Origin: Eunapius fragilis
Taxonomy: Eukaryota > Porifera > Demospongiae > Spongillida > Spongillidae
Reading direction: 5' to 3'
DNA length: 64,000 bases
Assembly: GCA_963681505.1 (NCBI GenBank)
Contig: OY811980.1
Span: forward strand, 5,583,004 to 5,647,003
Below, in pieces: positions 51,647 through 64,000 of this stretch. A program made the translations under genes and the position numbers. The notes below the pieces were generated by a model. That model had not been told where the DNA came from, made no database searches, and saw only the letters and a list, made by a program, of their open reading frames with translations. Numbering within the stretch: position 1 is the first letter of the stretch; each line of letters begins with the position of its first letter.

Positions 51647-54600
51647 ATGGCGGGGCGCGATGCACCAGCCCTCAACAGGCCTTACCCTCACTTTGGGACA
51701 CAAGCCGTGCATGCAGGACAGGACCCAGATCAATGGAACGTAAGAACCCTGGTTCCGCCCATCAGCCTGTCCTCCACGTTCGAGCAGGCGAGCCCGGGCG
51801 ATCCGGTAGGCGGAGCATCGCGTGCACGGGTCGCATTTATTGATGATCTTGAATGCTTCAACGCTGTCGCAGTCGCCCTACGAGTATAGTCGAAGCGGAA
51901 ACCCAACTCGAGATGTTTTCGAGAAGTGTATGGCATCGTTGGAGAATGCAAAATTTGGTTAGTTATAAATCGTCAAGAATTACATCAAATGATGCCTTCT
52001 CCTCCCCACCACACGCACATACGCGCATGCACACGCAACTGCTCCTCACCCTCCTCCCCTCCCCTTCCTTAAATTCCCCCCCCCCCCCCCCCCCAGCAAT
52101 TGCCACCTCTTCTGGCGTATCTGCGCCAACACTGATTGCGCAGATGTTGAAAAGTGGTGACCACATTGTCTGCATTGATGTCTACGTTGGTAAGGAGAAG
52201 GGTTGGGCTTGGTAAGGTGATGAGGTGTGGGTGGGCTTAGTAAGGTGATAAGGTGAGGAGGGGTGGGTAAGGAGAAGGGGTGGGCTTGGTAAGGTGATGT
52301 GAGGATGGAGGTAGGTGAGATGATGGTAAGGATAAGATAGGGGTGTGGCTAATTATCCTCTAGTGTGTACCATTGAACATGTACCTCAGCTGTCCCTGAC
52401 CACACCTCTTCCCACCCCACCCCTCACCTCAGCACCTTACCAGCCCCACCCCTCACCTCATCACCTTACCAGCCCCACCCCTCACCTCATCACCTTACCA
52501 GCCCCACCCCTCACCTCATCACCTTACCAGCCTCACCTCTTTACATCATCACCTTACCAGCCTCACCTCTTTACATCATCACCTTACCAGTCTCACCTCT
52601 TCACCTCATCACCTTACCAGCCCACCCTTACATCATCACCTTACCAGCCTCACCCTCACCTCATCACCTTACCAACCTCACCTCTTACATCATCACCACA
52701 AACAACTTGTTACTTGGTAACACTGGCATTGAACAACATAAGTTGGTTTGAACATCCTTTTAAGCCATCCAAAAAAGTTTGGTTTGACATATCAACCATC
52801 TTATTTGCAGCTGGCTAATTTTGTAGTCAATAGTGTATGCTATTAAAATGCCACGCAAAAAAAGAAAATGAAATTGCTGAGTATAATGTTATAATGACTT
52901 AAGAGCACCACCTCTTTCTCTCCCCCCCCCCCCCCCCCCCCCCCCCCCACCATAAAAAAATGTCTGGCTATACGGGCCTAGGTACGGTGATGATGTGTGG
53001 GGTAGTACTGGTAAGGTGATGAGGTGAGGGGTGGGGCTGGTAAGGTGATGAGGTGAAGAGGTGAGGCTGTTAAGGTGATGAGGTGAGGGGTGGGGCTGGT
53101 AAGGTGATGAGGTGAAGAGGTGAGGCTGTTAAGGTGAGGAGGTGAGGGGTGGGACTGGATGATGTACAAATTTAACTTTTAATTTTAATTTGACAAGAGG
53201 TCAGCTGTTATGAATAACCCATAGATATATGTCCTGAGATGTGTTTATGAACCTGCGCATCAACATGTGCATCAGTCATCATAGCCATTTAATGTGGCCA
53301 CACGGTCCTTGGGAACCAAATGAAGAACTACTGGCAGAACAAACTGAAGTCTTGTTCATGAGGAAGAGTCAATTAGTATATTATTTCAAAGGTCTTAAAA
53401 TACTGACAGAACAAGCAGAAGCCATGTTCACACATGTGGAAGAGTAATTTACAAATGCCTTTCAATAAACTGTAAACACCTAAGTGACTTATGTGAAATC
53501 GTTTTGTGTACATGCCATAGGTCTGGTCTCTGAGCTAGGGTATTTGTTAACGAAAGTACATAGGTTTGTATCCCACCCACCTGAGTCATCCTATTTTTTA
53601 TTTTTATATTTACAAACGTTAATGACTGGGATGGTTACAACTTCTAACAAAAAAAAGAGAGAGTAAGCCACATCATTTTGTTTACCCTGTGTAGTGCAGA
53701 CGTCAAATGAATTTTTGGTTAAGCATATCAACCAACTGAGTTCCAGTGATATAATAAATTAATCATGGTTCAGCTAGGTGCTGCTGCAGCACCTAGCTTC
53801 CCGATGGTGCTGCTGCAGCACCAGCAGGGAGGGGACCCAAAGCACCCTCTACGGCTACAGGCCTGGTACCTAGCCCCACCCCTCGCCCCACCCCTACAGG
53901 CCTGGTACCTAGCCCCACCCCTTGCCGTATCTAGCCCACCCCTCACATCATTACAGCCCCGCCCCTCACCTCATCACCCTCACATCAGCCCCACCCCTCA
54001 CCTCACCACCTTATCTAGCCCTTCCTGCATGTACATTACTACACAGGGACACTAAGGTACTTCAAATCCATTCTGAGCAGGTTCAATATTCATGCAACAT
54101 TCCTTGATACCATCGACCTTTCTTCAGTTGACAAGGCAATCCAGGAGAATACTGAGGTATGCTGAGCAATATGTGTGTATATAGAATACTGAGGTATGAT
54201 GCCAAACTAGTTAATCGATCTGATTGAGTGTCTCGGTATGTATCGCTATGTTGCTTCCCTTCAGATTGTATGGATGGAGGCATCAACCAATCCGCTTCTC
54301 CGTATGGTGGATATTGAAGCCGTAGCAAAGTTAGCAAAGGGAAGGAACCCTGTAAGCAAACTGAACTGATGTCCTGACAGTGTTGGAAGCTTCAACTGTC
54401 ATGCCAGAGTGCCTTATTGTACCCCTTGTTCCCCTCTCCCTCCTCCTCCCACTCCTCCCCCAGAACATTATGGTTGTGATAGATAACACATTCATGACAC
54501 CGTACTTTCTCCGCCCCCTTGACCTGGGTGCAGACATTGTTTACTACTCTGTAACCAAGTATCTGAATGGTAAGATCTATCAGCAAGGGGTATCATTGGT

Positions 54601-57600
54601 AAGGGTATCATTTGTAAGGGTATCTTTGTTAAGGGTAAGGTTGTCATACTGTTTTGGATCTATTTCAGGTCACACTGATGTCATCATGGGAGTCATTTGC
54701 ACCAACAATGATGACCTCGCAAAGAAGCTACGATTTCAGCAGTTTGGTAAGCCTCCTCCCTGCAGCTCCTCCAACCGAACACCTCTTTTTCCAACTACAT
54801 TACCAAAAAAAATCCATCTTTTGCGAGCCAGCCGGAGGAGCAGTCCCCAGTCCATTTGACTGTTACCTAGCCAACCGTGGTGTGAAGACCCTCCACCTGA
54901 GGATGAGGGAACACCAGAAGAACGCCTTTGCTGTGGCCAGGTTCCTGGAGACCTCCCCCCACGTTGCTGAGGTGATGTACCCTGGCCTCCCCTCCCACCC
55001 CCAACACGAGCTGGCCAAGAGGCAGTGCAGTGGGTTCAGTGGTATGGTGTCCTTCAGGATCAAGGGGACCCTGGACAACGCCTTGAAGTTCTTGGAGAAC
55101 CTCAAGGTGATAGTTGTTAGTTTTTTTGCCCGCCTGTATTGAACGTGTGGCCAAGCAGGAGGGGCATAGTGATGGGTGGTGGGTGGGTGGGTGGGTGGGT
55201 GGGTGAGGTGAGGGTTGGATACCCCCCTCACATCATTATGTCTTTAAAAACCTGCTGAAAAGCAAAGCTACTGAGGTTTGGTCCCAGATCCAGATGAAGA
55301 ACAGAGTTTCCCCATACCCCCTGGCTGGATGGAAAGGGGGTATGGTGGTGTGCTACTTATGTCATTTGTGGTGCTACTTATGTTATTTGTGGTGCTACTT
55401 ATGTCATTTGTGGTGCTACTTATGTCATTGGTGGTGCTACTTATGTCATTGGTGGTGCTACTTATGTCATTGGTGGTGCTACTTATGTCATTGGTGGTGC
55501 TACTTATGTCATTGGTGGTGCTACTTATGTCATTGGTGGTGCTACTTATGTCATTTGTGTGCTACTTATGTCATTGGTGGTGCTAGTTATGTCATTTGTG
55601 GTGCTACTTATGTCATTGGTGATGGTGCTAGTTATGTCATTGGTGGTGCTAGTTATGTCCATTGGTGGTGCTACTTATGTCATTGGTGGTGCTAGTTATG
55701 TCCATTGGTGGTGCTACTTATGTCCATTGGTGGTGCTACTTATGTCATTGGTGGTGCTAGTTATGTCATTGGTGGTGCTAGTTATGTCATTGGTGGTGCT
55801 ACTTATGTCATTGGTGGTGCTAGTTATGCCATTGGTGGTGTTACTTATGTCATTGGTGGTGCTAGTTATGTCATTGGTAGTGCTACTTATGTCATTGGTG
55901 GGGCTAGTTATGTCATTGGTGGGGCTAGTTATGTCATTGTTGGTGCTAGTTATGTCATTGGTGATGCTATTTATGTCGTTGGTGTTGCTAGTTATGTCAT
56001 TGGTGGTGCTGAATGCTGAGGTAAAAGATCTTAGAAGTATACCATCAATATAATGTTGGATGCAAAGGCACTAACTGAGGCTAACTGATGCACACCACCT
56101 TACCACTTACTTGCAACTACCTCATATGCACACCTTACCCCATATGCACACCTTATCACGTATGTGCACCTTACCACATACTTGCAACTACCTCATATGC
56201 ACACCTTACCCCATATGCACACCTTATCACGTATGTGCACCTTACCACATACATGTATGCACACCTTACCACATATGTACACCACCTTACCACATATGCA
56301 CACCTTACCACATATGCACACCTTACCTCATATGTACACCTTACCATATATGCACACCACCTTACCACATACGCACACCTTCCCTTATATCACTCCATGC
56401 AGCTATTTTACTATTGTAATTATCTTTTTGAGGTCTTCATTCTTGCTGAGAGTTTTGGAGGCTATGGCAGCCTTGTAGACCACCCTGCCCTCATGACACA
56501 CAAATATTCCTCTGCTGAAGAGAGGGAAAGGATTGGCATATCAGACACACTGGTAAGGGGAAAGGATTGGCATATCAGACACACTGGCATATCAGACACA
56601 CTGATAAGGGGAAAGGATTGGCATATCAGACACACTGGCATATCAGACACACTGATAAGGGGAAAGGATTGGCATATCAGACACACTGGCATATCAGACA
56701 CACTGATAAGGGGAAAGGATTGGCATATCGGACACACTAGTAGGGGGGAAGGATTGGCATATCAGACGCACTGGTAAGGGGAAAGGATTGGCATATCAGA
56801 CACACACTGGTAAGGGGAAAGGATTGGCATATCAGACACACTGGTAAGGGGAAAGGATTGGCATATCAGACACACTGGTAAGGGGAAAGGATTGGCATAT
56901 CAGACACACTGGTAAGGGGAAAGGATTGGCATATCAGACACACTGGTAAGGGGAAAGGATTGGCATATCAGACACACTGGTAAGGGGAAAGGATTGGCAT
57001 ATCAGACACACTGGTAAGGGGAAAGGATTGGCATATCAGACACACTGGTAAGGGGAAAGGATTGGTATATCAGACACACTGGTAAGGGGAAAGGATTGGC
57101 ATATCAGACACACTGGTAAGGGGAAAGGATTGGCATATCAGACACACTGGTAAGGGGAAAGGATTGGTATATCAGACACACTGGTAAGGGGAAAGGATTG
57201 GCATATCAGACACACTGGTAAGGGGAAAGGATTGGCATATCAGACACACTGATAAGGGGAAAGGATTGGCATATCAGACACACTGGTAAGGGGAAAGGAT
57301 TGGCATATCAGACACACTGGTAAGGGGAAAAGGATTGGCATATCAGACGCACTGGTAAGGGGAAAGGATTGGCATATCAGACACACTGGTAAGGGGAAAG
57401 GATTGGCATATCAGACACACTGGTAAGGGGAAAGGATTGGCATATCAGACACACTGGTAAGGGGAAAGGATTGGCATATCAGACACACTGGCATATCAGA
57501 CACACTGGCATATCAGACACACTGGCATATCAGACACACTGGTAAGGGGAAAGGATTGGCATATCAGACACACTGGTAAGGGGAAAGGATTGGCATATCA

Positions 57601-58744
57601 GACACACTGGTAAGGGGAAAGGATTGGCATATCAGACACACTGGTAAGGGGAAAGGATTGGCATATCAGACACACTGGTAAGGGGAAAGGATTGGCATAT
57701 CAGACACACTGGTAAGGGGAAAGGATTGGCATATCAGACACACTGGTAAGGGGAAAGGATTGGCATATCAGACACACTGGTAAGGGGAAAGGATTGGCAT
57801 ATCAGACACACTGGTAAGGGGAAAGGATTGGCATATCAGACACACTGGTAAGGGGAAAGGATTGGCATATCAGACACACTGGTAAGGGGAAAGGATTGGC
57901 ATATCAGACACACTGGTAAGGGGAAAGGATTGGCATATCAGACACACTGGTAAGGGGAAAGGATTGGCATATCAGACACACTGGTAAGGGGAAAGGATTG
58001 GCATATCAGACACACTGGTAAGGGGAAAGGATTGGTATATCAGACACACTGGTAAGGGGAAAGGATTGGCATATCAGACATGTGTCAGAGTGTTGAAGGT
58101 GTGACTGCAGTGTGTTTGACATTATTAGATCCGTCTGTCGGTGGGCTTGGAGGATGAGGAGGATCTTTTGCATGATCTAGGGCAGGCACTGGAGGTATGT
58201 GGTGTGTGGTGTGTGCATGTGTATGTGTGGTGTGTGCATGTGTATGTGTGGTGTGTGCATGTGTATGTGTGGTGTGTGCATGTGTATGTGTGGTGTGTGC
58301 ATGTGTATGTGTGGTGTGTGCATGTTTATGTGTGGCGTATGCATGTGTATGTGTGGTGTATGCATGTGTATGTGTGGTATATGCATGTGTATGTGTGGTA
58401 TATGCATGTGTATGTGTGGTATGTGCATGTGGCTGTGTGGTATGTGGCTGTGTGGTGTATGCATGTGTATGTGTGGTGTATGCATGTGTATGTGTGCATG
58501 TGTATGTGTATGTGTGGTGTATGCATGTGTCTATGCATGGGCATGTATATGCATTTGTGCATGTGTGTGAATTTGTGTGCATGGTTGTGCACGTGTGTTT
58601 GCATATGCTTGTGTGAGTGCTCAGCATGTCTTAGTGCATGTTTGCACGCATGTGTGTATGTGCGTGTGTGCGAGCATGCATTTATTGTTCTCGGTTTCAT
58701 TGGATACTTTCACTCTGCAGTCAGCTCATTCAGCTCAAGCCTAA
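51647..58744 (+). CDS. CTH: Cystathionine gamma-lyase
   Basis: PLP-dependent enzyme of transsulfuration; cleaves cystathionine to cysteine, 2-oxobutanoate and ammonia in the cytosol, and can make hydrogen sulfide. Eleven exons: 51647-51805, 51873-51957, 52097-52189, 54047-54156, 54265-54351, 54464-54569, 54669-54746, 54832-55106, 56433-56552, 58129-58194, 58721-58744; 1,203 nt, 400 aa, close to the 405 of the human enzyme. Visible motifs: [45 protein letters not shown], the PLP-lysine in [27 protein letters not shown] and GISDTL. Equivalents of human Glu59, Tyr114, Arg119, Lys212 and Glu339 are all present, favouring gamma-lyase over other family members. One oddity is Val for the first Gly of the usual VYGGT. 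Start ATG sits in a good context. Introns 3, 8, 9 and 10 are inflated by minisatellites. It is convergent with gene 3. Confidence 0.93.
52076..52094. repeat. Poly(C) tract serving as polypyrimidine tract of CTH exon 3
   Basis: Nineteen C directly before the AG acceptor at 52095-52096. Length variation here would act on exon 3 recognition. Confidence 0.85.
52190..54046. repeat. CTH intron 3: alternating-orientation GGTAAGGTGATGAGG minisatellite
   Basis: The intron begins at the exon 3 donor (TTG|GTAAGG) and from there carries degenerate copies of GGTAAGGTGATGAGGTGAGG. Blocks: forward 52190-52310, reverse complement about 52425-52690, forward about 52985-53155, reverse complement about 53870-54025. 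A 26-base C run lies at 52923-52948. The sequence between (53200-53760) shows nothing recognisable. Frames here (Leu-Thr-Ser-Ser-Pro repeats) are not genes. Confidence 0.8.
55345..56010. repeat. CTH intron 8: 21-bp minisatellite
   Basis: About 30 copies of GTGCTACTTATGTCATTGGTG (21 bp) with single-base variants. Because 21 is a multiple of three it gives long open frames in several phases, all artefacts. Confidence 0.9.
56090..56390. repeat. CTH intron 8: CACCTTACCACATATGCA minisatellite
   Basis: About 16 degenerate copies of a unit near 18-21 bp (ACCTTACCACATATGCACAC). On the opposite strand it reads GGTAAGGTG, the same core as the intron 3 arrays. Confidence 0.85.
56527..58083. repeat. CTH exon 9/intron 9 boundary amplified as a 34-bp minisatellite
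   Basis: About 44 copies of a 34-bp unit. The first copy is the last 26 bases of exon 9 (AAGGATTGGCATATCAGACA then CACTG) plus the donor GTAAGGGG, so every copy carries a full exon-intron boundary with an intact GT donor. A few copies have an inserted 17-bp sub-repeat (GCATATCAGACACACTG; around 56570-56700 and 57480-57540). Copies are nearly identical, implying recent homogenisation. The array ends at 58083, 45 bp before exon 10. Confidence 0.93.
58195..58530. repeat. CTH intron 10: 21-bp GTGTATGTGTGG minisatellite starting at the donor
   Basis: Copies of about TGTGTGCATGTGTATGTGTGG begin within a few bases of the exon 10 donor (GAG|GTATGTGG), then decay into TG-rich DNA to about 58670. Cys-Val or His-Thr reading frames on either strand are artefacts. 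Confidence 0.85.
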
Positions 58745-59524: not shown

Positions 59525-60799
59525 TCAGACCTTTGGCTTTTTGTTGTTACCATTTCCTTTTTCTTCGTCAAATATAACAGTCGCTACTTCCGGTCCTCCT
59601 CGTGAAGCTTGTGATATTGCAAGGTGCGAGAGAGCCGGTCCAAGTGCTTTTATTTCTTCAGTGTAAAAGACAGTTTCATCGGTATCAGTTTTGACTAAAA
59701 TTGTTCCGCGAGTCAGCACACTCAGCTTAGTTGATGTTCCTGTTAAAGATAGAGATAATTTATGTTTCTTGTCACGAGGCCTTAGAAGCTGCAACCACGA
59801 GAGCCGAACTTCCTTCTTCAGGGCGCAGAAGAAAATAAATATTAAGAAACCTTGGAACGAGTTTATCAATGTGAACACAATCTGGAAAGCCTGGTCAGCT
59901 TTCAAGATGGTAAGTGCTCCAAAGATCCAGGTAAGGCCAAATAGGACGAATATACTAATGATGTTTATCATCAGTTGAATGGAACCAAAATTCTTGTTGT
60001 GGTCGCTTGATCGTTTCAGCGCGTGCTTAATAAGTACCACAATCACGATAACAAATATGACAGCATTGAAGGCAAGCATGAGAAGAATCGGTCCCAAGAA
60101 TGCGGCAAAGAACACAGTGACATTACTAATGAAGCAGCTATTGTGGTAGGGAAGATATCAGCGGAATGACAAGTGCACATGCAACCACGCGGTTAGCTTA
60201 CTATCCATACGGTGCGTCACGTTTGACAAGCAGATTTCGATCCATGGCTAGCGGAATAATTACGGGAACCAATGGTGTCACTGAAGGGTTAAAAATAATA
60301 CATGGCAACCCAACACCATCTAGAGCATACCCCAACAGACAAGAGATAGAATGATGATGTATCGTGTGGTGATCTGGAAAAATACAAGAACAAGCTTCTG
60401 GAACATCAGCAAGGCCTCCGCCCCCATCCACATCACGGCCACCAGGGTGAAGTAGTGGACCAACACTGACACAGTCACACAGCCTCCATAGTTCTCTGTC
60501 CTGTCAATTCCAATCACAAACACCAACAGCATACCAATGAGGGCACAGCACAGCTGAACATGGAACTTGGAGACATCCTTCTCTCTCTGCTTCCTAATTT
60601 AAGCATTGCATTGTGAAACACGCAGGTAACTATATTAATTAACCAAATATTATACATTAACGTACTTTATAAGTGTTAGGCTTAGAATTGTTGCCACCAG
60701 TCCAAGAAGAGACAGTGACACTCCAACAAAGGTGATGGCTTCCAATGCTCTTTGAACAGGTGTACTTGGAGGTTCAGGTCTGATTCTGCTTGATATGTC
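59525..60799 (-). CDS. Gene 3: 7TM domain and cytoplasmic tail
   Basis: Exons 60666-60799 (TM1), 60331-60593 (TM2-TM4), 60202-60280 (VTPLVPVIIPLAM) and 59525-60137 (remaining helices and tail). Signatures HVQLCCALIGMLLVF, EALLMFQK, FGLTWIFGALT and SFQGFLIFIFFCAL mark class B2. The tail of about 95 residues is unrelated in sequence to the repeat-bearing tail of gene 2, so downstream coupling probably differs. Confidence 0.87.
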
Positions 60800-63700
60800 C
60801 TGCAATGATCAAAGTAAGAGTGCTGGGTATGACCACAAAAGCCTTACCACTAAGATGGCAAAGTTTGTGAGGTGTGAGCATTGACACTGTATTTGACTAT
60901 TTGAAGTGTTGCTCATGTTGGTGATGCATCCCTCTGTAGTCCAATTACCTCTCCCTCCTGATGGTAAAAGTAGTATATGGATTCATATTAATAACTGTTT
61001 GTCCTTAATGAACATTCTTTTAGCACCTTCCCTTCCTAATAAGCTATTATCTCTCAACCTTATCTTAACCCACCTCATTCCCTCCCCTCCCTCACTGTAC
61101 CTGCTGCACTAAAGTTCCAACTGACGCAGTCATATCTTGAATAATTCTGCATTCAGTAATAACCCATCAAAAATGTCTCATATTTTATAATGGTCTTACT
61201 TTGCTAGGAATAGTGAACAAGAACTGAGCTGGGGTTGAAAGGTTTCCAAATGAGGTATCACTTCCTGCTACAATTGTAGCACCGAGGACGAGAGATGCTA
61301 TCATGGTGCTGTTTGAAGAAATAGCTAGTGGGAATAATGATGCTATGTGATAGATAGAGAAAAAAACTCCAACACGAGTGATATTTAAAGATTTGAACAA
61401 TGATGGCGGCAGGAAAACTGATGCAGTGGATGCAGGACTATTGGAGACACTGGAAGTGTTTCCTGTTTCTTGGCTGCTATTTCCAACATCTTGTGGGGAA
61501 AAGCTAAAGCTGGTTCCCTCAATGGTAAGGTTAGCTAGAGGAATCTGGTTGGCAGGATTACTGCATGACTACCACTTGTGCACTTCATTACAGGCAAACC
61601 TTTTGAGCAACAAATGTTGTCTGATTTTTTATAGAAATGAAAGATGTGAAGTTTTCTTGTTCAACAAGGCTTGAAGCAATGTTTTCAAATGACTTAACAA
61701 TTCTGGGAAAATGGTTTATTTTTAAATGGTAAGAAGTTTAATTGTAATTTACATTGAACCACTTCTTTCCAGCACCATTGGTGGCCAAGATTGGATACTG
61801 CTTAGGACTGTAACAACGTTGGTAATGGTCTGATGAGATATAAATGTAAGTTCAAAACACTGGCTCGCTTGTCATGTACCTCTGGCTGCACAGAAACAGA
61901 TGGTGATGATATGTTGGCAATTTGAGTGAAGACAGCTGTTACAACAGCCAGGTTTGAACTACTTTGGTCCACCACCTCCGTAGCTTGAGACACTACAGTC
62001 TGTAACTGTGATGTCACATTTATCATATTTTCTGAGCTGATGGTTTGCTGGTGAGAATTAAAAACTGTAAGTACTGAACGAAGATTTTTAAAGCCTCACA
62101 TTTTGTATAACTGATCTGAGGTCTTTGAACTGCTTGGTCACCACTGTGGGGCATATAGAAGCATCCTCTGTCCAGATCTGTCCATTGCAGTACCGTGTTA
62201 CATTTTGGCCATCAACCCCGTACTGACACATTTGAGACACAGCCTGACCATCCACTGCCTCTGGCCAGCTGTATGTCCCTCCTCTGTTGGCCACATCTAG
62301 AGCACAACTGCAAAATCTGTTCGCTGTAATGGAAGTACCAATGTGGAATCACATGATAGTGTAATCAATGCTAAAACCAAACCTGATATGAATAGCGAAT
62401 TATTTCCCAGAACAATAGCTGTACTGTTGATAGGTCCAATTGACTGCATAAATGTAGTAATCTCCGTGGGTGTCAACTTCAGAAAAATCGAAATGTTGCA
62501 TTCAATCCTATATGATCCAGTAGTGACATCATTTGGACACCTAATACAAAGTGCTCATGAGGTAAATAACCACATCAACATGTTGATTTTACCTTTGCAC
62601 AGAAGTACACAGTGCCCCCAGAGGAAATACTCCATTTATACCACTCCCCCGAAGACTTACATTTGCTACCATTGCTATCTGATAATGGAACATGTGTACT
62701 AATGTATTACTATTCTTTTTAAAAATGACATTACCTCATCTTGAAACTTAGAGAGAGCGGCATCATTTTGATGATGATCAATGTTGGTTAGTGTGGATAT
62801 CCTGAAATATACAATGGATGGAACTGATGTTGGAGCTGTATTGAATATTTCAAGAGTTAACACATTGTTAAAATATGTCTGCAAGTTACCATGAAAGGTT
62901 GTTGCATTTATAGAGGTGTTAGGACCACACCCACCAATGGTAAAAGCACACACAAGGATTGAATATCGGGTATAATTGAAAAGGTTTTGAAGTAGTAGTG
63001 TGGTATTTGAAACCCTAGAAGACCTTGCTGGAAAGCCATTTGATGGTGTGTAGGTCACCTATATACATTAGTAATTGATACAACATTTTATATGTCACTT
63101 CTCTTAAGCCTCACCATGTATCCTAATACAATTCCATTACTACATGATGGAGGACTCCATGACACTAACAGACTGCTGTAGCTGAGGTCACTGACACTAA
63201 TATTGAGAGGGGAAGAAGGAGGAGCCTGTAGGGTGGTGAATGATTGAGGCATGGAGAATTCTGCTTCTCCTTCAGTTGTGTTTACCAACACAACAAATGA
63301 GTAAGAAGTGAATGGCACTGTGGGAACATTGGGTATCAACATTTATAAGTAGAGACATGTTAGGCCACCTACCAAGTGACATGTCTTTGAGTGCTATGTA
63401 TCGCTGGCTTCCAGGTACTGTAATGAAGTAACTCTGATTTTGACCATTTACACAGTCTGCATCAACAGAGCTGGGATCATTAACAGTTACATTAACAGAG
63501 TATGAAATGACTGAATAGTTCTTTTCCAGAGGACAGCTCCAGGTGAGATTAGCAGTGGTAGCAGTGAGGGCACTGGATGAAATTTCTGGAGGTTGTGGGA
63601 CCTCAGCATATGCTGTGGGGGTCATGTAAGGTATACAGGTTTACCACTTTAGAACAGAGACAAGACTCACTGTTAAGGGATGAATCGACAACTGGTCCAC

Positions 63701-63973
63701 TAAATGGTCCAGGACCTTTGTTGGTGTATGCTCTCACGGAAATGCTGTACTGCACACACTCCTGGAGCATATTCAGTACTAGATGATTTGGAGCACCACT
63801 GGTGTTCCTATAGCTGACACCAGTCTGTCCATTGTCCAAGGGCCATGTATACTTCACTTCATAGGCTATGAGGATACCATTCCTTGATATATTAGGTATC
63901 TGTTCCCAACTGACATTGACTGAAGTTGGTGCAAGTGTAATGGCAGACACTTTGATTGGTGCAGCATTTGGAA
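59525..63973 (-). CDS. Receptor gene 3: adhesion GPCR paralogue, 3' half (5' end outside window)
   Basis: Eighteen exons in the window, 3,422 nt, in one frame from an FN3 exon at 63973 to the stop at 59525. Order: three FN3 domains, unassigned module, HormR, GAIN/GPS, 7TM, short tail. It matches exons 40-57 of gene 2 exon for exon; only one exon in the HormR-to-FN3 part differs in length (62890-63058, 3 nt shorter), while the GAIN and GPCR exons differ more. No stop, frameshift or missing splice site was found in this part. By analogy the off-window 5' part should carry FN3 arrays and Ig domains, but that cannot be seen. Expected at the plasma membrane, self-cleaved at the GPS. Confidence 0.87.
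60848..61829 (-). CDS. Gene 3: GAIN domain with GPS
   Basis: Exons 61753-61829, 61600-61702, 61200-61544, 61101-61146 and 60848-60957. GPS elements DCVSWNF, RGNWTTEGC, IQCQCSHL and TNFAILV are all present with the HL^T cleavage triad. Compared with gene 2 the largest exon is 345 versus 327 nt and the sequence is much less similar. Confidence 0.87.
61880..62678 (-). CDS. Gene 3: unassigned module, HormR and start of GAIN
   Basis: Exons 62593-62678, 62383-62540, 62100-62323 and 61880-62047. HormR signature FCSCALDVANRGGTYSWPEA, CQYGVDG, NVTRYCNGQIW. Exon lengths are identical to gene 2 exons 45-48. The last exon diverges at its 3' end, which is where close similarity to gene 2 stops. Confidence 0.82.
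62735..63973 (-). CDS. Gene 3: receptor-proximal FN3 exons
   Basis: Exons 63671-63973, 63373-63612, 63115-63317, 62890-63058 and 62735-62835. Same three FN3 domains and same irregular phases as exons 40-44 of gene 2. Introns are nearly identical to those of gene 2 as well (for example around 63345-63370 versus 24815-24840), pointing to recent duplication or conversion. Confidence 0.87.
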
Positions 63974-64000
63974 CTGAAAAGCAAATATTTTAATTAAAGG

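Follow-up and report, generated by a model that had tools for sequence, protein, structure and literature searches.

A minisatellite repeats the exon 9 splice donor of a cystathionine gamma-lyase gene in the sponge Eunapius fragilis

In the sponge Eunapius fragilis, a 34-bp minisatellite enters the end of exon 9 of a gene for cystathionine gamma-lyase (CTH) and carries copies of the splice donor of this exon far into intron 9. We regard it as probable (about 0.72) that the array is a neutral minisatellite, which arose from a donor-spanning duplication, expanded, and is tolerated thanks to use of the first donor. Coordinates refer, unless a locus is named, to the window, i.e. the whole stretch of 64,000 nucleotides of contig OY811980.1 that was analysed. 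The features are collected in Table 1.

The CTH gene and its 34-bp array

The gene that hosts the array lies on the plus strand and was modelled with ten exons (51647-58194), all of which are open and which join to an open frame of 393 residues. Exon borders were placed by eye, using the protein match together with GT/AG signals. The spliced model matches the Pfam family Cys_Met_Meta_PP from profile position 2 to 381 of 381 (E 2.1e-147), and its residues 13-392 align with the solved cystathionine gamma-lyase 6nba (E 1.5e-146), which we take to be the human enzyme. An earlier note on this DNA had named the gene as CTH and placed the true donor at 56553 and the start of exon 10 at 58129; the protein match bears out the name, and joining the two sites gives CTH. 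A terminal exon reading SAHSAQA-stop likely follows at 58721-58744, judging from the sequence.

Repeats are also present in other introns of the gene. Intron 3 (52190-53158) opens with diverged units bearing GTAAGG, and a related 29-mer occurs there in both orientations, minus at 52408-52697 and plus at 52981-53158. Intron 8 (55346-56381) contains two further minisatellites, one with 31.5 copies of a 21-bp unit and an 18/71 bp array that stops about 50 nt before the acceptor of exon 9. Tail to tail with CTH, the minus strand holds pieces of a receptor gene (59525-63989); four of the six open frames scanned show 7tm_2 (secretin family) and fn3 domains.

Table 1. Features of the CTH gene and its exon 9 array (window coordinates; a slash marks the exon-intron border)
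Feature	Position	Strand	Remarks
Two-copy second donor-spanning duplication in CTH	54147..54201	+	AGAATACTGAG/GTATG, end of exon 4, again 37 nt on
CTH exon 9	56433..56552	+	120 nt, phase 0 at either end, 40 residues
34-bp minisatellite, starting inside exon 9	56527..58080	+	42 full units, 6 half-units, 1 partial
Authentic 5' splice site	56553..56560	+	CTG/GTAAGGGG
Stretch after the true donor free of intact donors	56569..56773	+	three 51-nt composites (17+34), then the AGTAGG unit; in frame, open
36 intact decoy donors CTG/GTAAGG	56774..58057	+	first GT 56774, last GT 58052
TAA in the CTH frame when the true donor is skipped	56775..56777	+	precedes the 35 intact decoys that start at 56810
Three half-units in a row, without donor	57473..57523	+	17 nt each
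Non-repeat remainder of intron 9	58081..58128	+	acceptor TTATTAG
CTH exon 10	58129..58194	+	22 residues; protein match

The array is real and lies where the earlier note had put it, beginning 26 nt upstream of the end of exon 9, and its unit indeed consists of the final 26 nt of the exon followed by GTAAGGGG. The estimate of about 44 copies can be refined, since the array divides into 49 pieces, namely 42 full units, six half-units of 17 nt and a partial unit at the end. TRF reports a period of 34 with 95% and 98% matches in two rows, and the head-to-tail units fall in the range of about 10-100 bp that defines a minisatellite. Among the full units, 30 of 42 are identical, and, with the two longer ones (35 and 36 nt) set aside, the 40 units of exactly 34 nt differ from the consensus at only 13 of 1,360 bases, which indicates that the array is young or homogenised. 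The two TGG within the unit stand 17 nt apart, exactly the length of the half-units, which is what slippage would produce. At least 30 perfect copies of the unit are present in the assembly (219 Mb, 24 contigs searched), and the 30 that were found all belong to this array. A 16-mer crossing the donor has 41 near copies (up to 3 of 16 positions mismatched) in intron 9, whereas 200 dinucleotide shuffles yielded three at most; therefore, the array is not due to chance.

The motif CTG/GTAAGG is intact in 37 of the 42 full units, and all 37 donors share the sequence GTAAGGGG; GATAAGG takes its place in four units and AGTAGG in one. The view that every copy offers an equivalent donor thus holds for the 37 alone. 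Their equality rests on the sequence and on predicted U1 pairing: the true donor and the tested decoy both reach -8.5 kcal/mol, and none of the ten donors modelled in the CTH gene pairs better. The corresponding energies are -4.7 kcal/mol for the AGTAGG unit and -3.5 kcal/mol for a GATAAGG unit. As had been proposed, the intact donors are dozens in number and mostly 34 nt apart, but the decoys that come first are disabled. Of the four GATAAGG units, three sit in the 51-nt composites adjoining the true donor, which have no GT at the donor position, and the GT of the weak AGTAGG donor (56740) lies 187 nt past the true donor. Since the units beside the true donor have lost their donors, the nearest intact rival is 221 nt away, and its use would lengthen exon 9 from 120 to 341 nt. 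The GATAAGG composites look like copies of one event, and we make no claim of selection against near decoys.

Outcome of donor choice

Each of 38 donor-like sites was joined in silico to exon 10, and 56553 is the only one that gives CTH. The weak donor at 56740 shifts the frame and leads to a stop 26 nt past the junction. The 36 intact decoys fall into frames 0, 1 and 2 in the numbers 10, 12 and 14. Whereas the earlier note had argued that donor choice would shift the frame two times out of three, 26 of the 36 do so and ten do not, yet every one of the 36 runs into a stop upstream of the junction or at it and is non-productive, so the argument becomes stronger. In the case of decoy 56774 the stop is formed across its own junction. 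In 34 of the 36 the stop lies at least 69 nt upstream of the junction, and for stops that far before a junction nonsense-mediated decay is expected. In-frame protein variants from alternative donors, a trait of the human IFI6 minisatellite though perhaps not a defining one, were found for none of the 36 intact decoys. Exonisation of the first in-frame 51-nt block was considered too and rejected, as the two donor-like sites that lie after 56553 and ahead of the stop at 56775 are both out of the CTH frame.

From these results we infer the following course of events. A tandem duplication across the border of exon 9 and intron 9 would have started the array, and growth by slippage or unequal exchange would have multiplied the donor carried along, in a genome that generates comparable arrays at many sites. 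Productive splicing would stay at the first donor, so that exon 9 remains 120 nt long and the decoys are excised with the rest of the array as one intron of 1,576 nt. Transcripts spliced at decoys would bear an early stop and should be lost, and the array itself would be neutral.

Several factors bear on whether the first donor prevails. Exon length (120 nt versus at least 341 nt) and the order of transcription act in its favour, and proximity to the acceptor favours the last decoy, whose use would leave a 77-nt intron. Classic experiments with equally strong donors often showed a preference for the one closest to the acceptor. Such a preference would predict the non-productive 77-nt intron and goes against first-donor use. 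Bound proteins such as SRSF1 can, as reported in PMC5585400, shift the choice to a donor near the acceptor. Predicted accessibility, in a fold of positions 56433-57300, is 0.36 for the first donor, 0.34-0.52 for 14 of 15 intact decoys and 0.09 for the remaining one. It does not favour the first donor and hence counts against the neutral reading; RNA folding as the cause of first-donor use is without support in this one fold. If the decoys were substantially used, the array would be a burden and not neutral.

Donor-spanning copies in the paralog and across the genome

A second CTH gene resides on the same contig, 1.36 Mb away. Its intron 9, which measures only 73 nt, lacks the array. Since the last decoy would leave 77 nt, the exon 9 array fits growth within a short ancestral intron, and the array-free intron of the paralog suggests that it arose in this way. 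The donor of the paralog's exon 8, however, begins an array of its own (CTCAAG/GTATGGTTGGAGGGTGTGGTACAT, 30 bp x 20 copies, L035 5965-6561). Its first five extra donors follow at 30-150 nt and are in frame, and as the unit of 30 nt is a multiple of three they could add in-frame repeats of ten residues. Exon 8 is 96.0% identical in DNA between the paralogs (264/275; 54832-55106 and L035 5696-5970), versus 55-73% for exons 3-7, 9 and 10, which looks like a recent gene conversion across 1.36 Mb that ended near the donor array of the paralog. The two genes also differ in a conserved loop (52171-52189; L035 3660-3681). The present CTH reads CIDVYVG there, lacking a residue and having a changed Gly relative to the paralog (CMNDVYGG) and 6nba (CMDDVYGG).

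Minisatellites are abundant in this genome. In a sample made up of the window holding the CTH array and 20 stretches of 10 kb, 24,048 of 264,000 bases, or about 9%, belong to 78 arrays, counted without overlaps and with a period of 9-100, no fewer than 2.5 copies and no less than 70% matches (2,747 bases are N). We compared how often exon ends and random positions are followed by a near copy, defined as up to 4 of 18 positions mismatched within the next 320 nt or up to the end of the piece, which was shorter for most CCT genes. Exon ends came from the proteasome, AAA and CCT families (of the matches listed, 15 of 17, 15 of 24 and 34 of 34 were taken, respectively). Donors were assigned by eye at 25 of 30 and 23 of 34 of them, and 16 were dropped; eight donors of the CTH paralog and ten of the present gene complete the set of 66. 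Near copies follow 7 of these 66 donors, or 5 of 56 without this gene, compared with 464 of 3,830 random positions in the 20 stretches (Fisher p = 0.85 and 0.68, respectively), where 121 low-complexity positions had been removed from the random set, a filter that the donor set did not pass. Donors carry copies about as often as any other place, although the rows are not independent, since there are paralogs among the CCT rows, the AAA genes are paralogs of one another, and the CTH gene was chosen for its array. This background rate favours the notion that such duplications are tolerated.

The seven donors belong to the AAA genes L048 and L050, the CCT exons L080 and L087, exon 8 of the CTH paralog, and exons 4 and 9 of CTH. 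In L049, the third of the AAA paralogs, TRF finds this array too, yet the locus did not pass the near-copy test. These AAA-domain copies (C20, 4.70-4.82 Mb) share a 20-bp donor-spanning array with 15.1, 18.5 and 7.2 copies by TRF in L048, L049 and L050, respectively. In the other donor-spanning cases the spacing is 28, 37 or 49 nt, or 20 nt in L050, and these frame-breaking distances would be harmful if the decoys were much used; the exception is the 30-nt spacing of the paralog's exon 8.

At acceptors, a near copy upstream was found in none of 38 (20 assigned among 30 exon starts of proteasome and AAA genes, nine per CTH gene, none from CCT). This has a probability of 0.007 at the background rate, for which copies had been sought downstream on both strands, and differs from the donors with Fisher p = 0.046. 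Because the sample is small, assigned by hand and drawn partly from related genes, and because the background direction is downstream, the contrast between donors and acceptors (7/66 versus 0/38) is suggestive only.

Competing explanations and precedents

Instead of being neutral, the decoys could divert CTH pre-mRNA to stop-bearing transcripts, with the length of the array as a rheostat of output. The 37 donors of the same sequence, whose predicted U1 pairing equals the best of the gene's ten, would suit such a role, as would the lack of any productive intact decoy and the closeness of the last decoy's 77-nt intron to the 73 nt of the paralog. We nevertheless deem this unlikely, as similar duplications are found in other conserved genes, where they affect donors about as often as the background predicts, as if harmless, and as the nearest intact decoy, 221 nt off, would extend exon 9 from 120 to 341 nt. 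A broader proposal, in which the array is a length-dependent brake on CTH and the genome tolerates minisatellites across donors but not acceptors, strikes us as distinctly unlikely. If it were true, copy-number differences between individuals would alter hydrogen-sulphide and cysteine metabolism, and growth at donors but not acceptors would lay open, within a single genome, the rule that lets the first donor win.

Splicing errors would also be cheap if the present CTH copy were partly or largely inactive and the second gene did the work. The existence of that gene on the same contig, 1.36 Mb off, and the altered loop (CIDVYVG versus CMNDVYGG in the paralog and CMDDVYGG in 6nba) point in this direction; the ten open exons, the Pfam match over positions 2-381 of 381 (E 2.1e-147) and the paralog's own donor-spanning array point the other way and make it very unlikely. 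Hardly credible is the idea that active donors are favoured starting points for minisatellites, for example through RNA-DNA hybrids at G-rich intron starts. Several introns of CTH and its paralog do open with donor-like repeats, and GGTAAG triplets (8-38 nt gaps, both strands) outnumber those of the reversed word genome-wide by 9,244 to 3,432, a count that is inflated because, among the places listed, the same units occur at several sites and each array is counted many times. However, the donors with copies (7/66) show no excess over random positions (464/3,830), and at random loci copies are rarer at donor-like sites (206/839) than at the reversed motif (448/1,159). With donors at the background rate and the donor-like motif not favoured in random loci, we rejected a special seeding process.

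The human gene IFI6 carries a minisatellite with units of 12 nt, which are thus in frame. Turri, Cuin and Porter reportedly described in 1995 (NAR 23:1854) that this minisatellite of IFI6 (G1P3, 6-16) gives multiple splice donors. The title of that work is cited in PMC4526556, PMC2572611 and PMC3618361, and in the first of these two downstream repeat units are reported as donors that yield isoforms. In the CTH gene, likewise, the array enters the exon end, the units carry the splice donor, and one exon stands opposite many donors. The CTH unit differs in that it is 34 nt long and mostly exonic, and no intact decoy could give the normal protein. The IFI6 minisatellite is a direct precedent, and the frame-breaking, mostly exonic unit of the CTH array is unusual.

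In a potato RdRp gene, a tandem duplication across an intron-exon border was accompanied by intron gain (PMC4974935). There, as in CTH, whose unit contains GT and AG, splice signals were copied with exon sequence, but the potato case concerns the acceptor side, at the first intron and second exon, and a new intron, whereas CTH has dozens of donor-side copies. The other donor-spanning cases in the sponge genome (paralog exon 8, the AAA genes on C20 with 20 bp, two CCT exons) resemble the exon 9 array in that exon end and donor were copied, and differ in unit and length. Among the titles and abstract beginnings of the matches listed, other donor minisatellites were not found, which is weak evidence of absence. 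The available text on an earthworm metallothionein gene describes intronic minisatellites and none across a donor, and in C. elegans minisatellites have reportedly been linked to splicing decisions (PMC4039745).

Intron 9 of CTH represents a natural competition among 37 identical donors that has a single productive winner and is simple to read out. Along with other donor-spanning arrays, it can show whether order, acceptor distance or exon length decides, and the AAA genes L048, L049 and L050 form a ready series for effects of array length. If the contrast between donors and acceptors holds genome-wide, it would reveal which of the two splice borders is tolerant of duplication.
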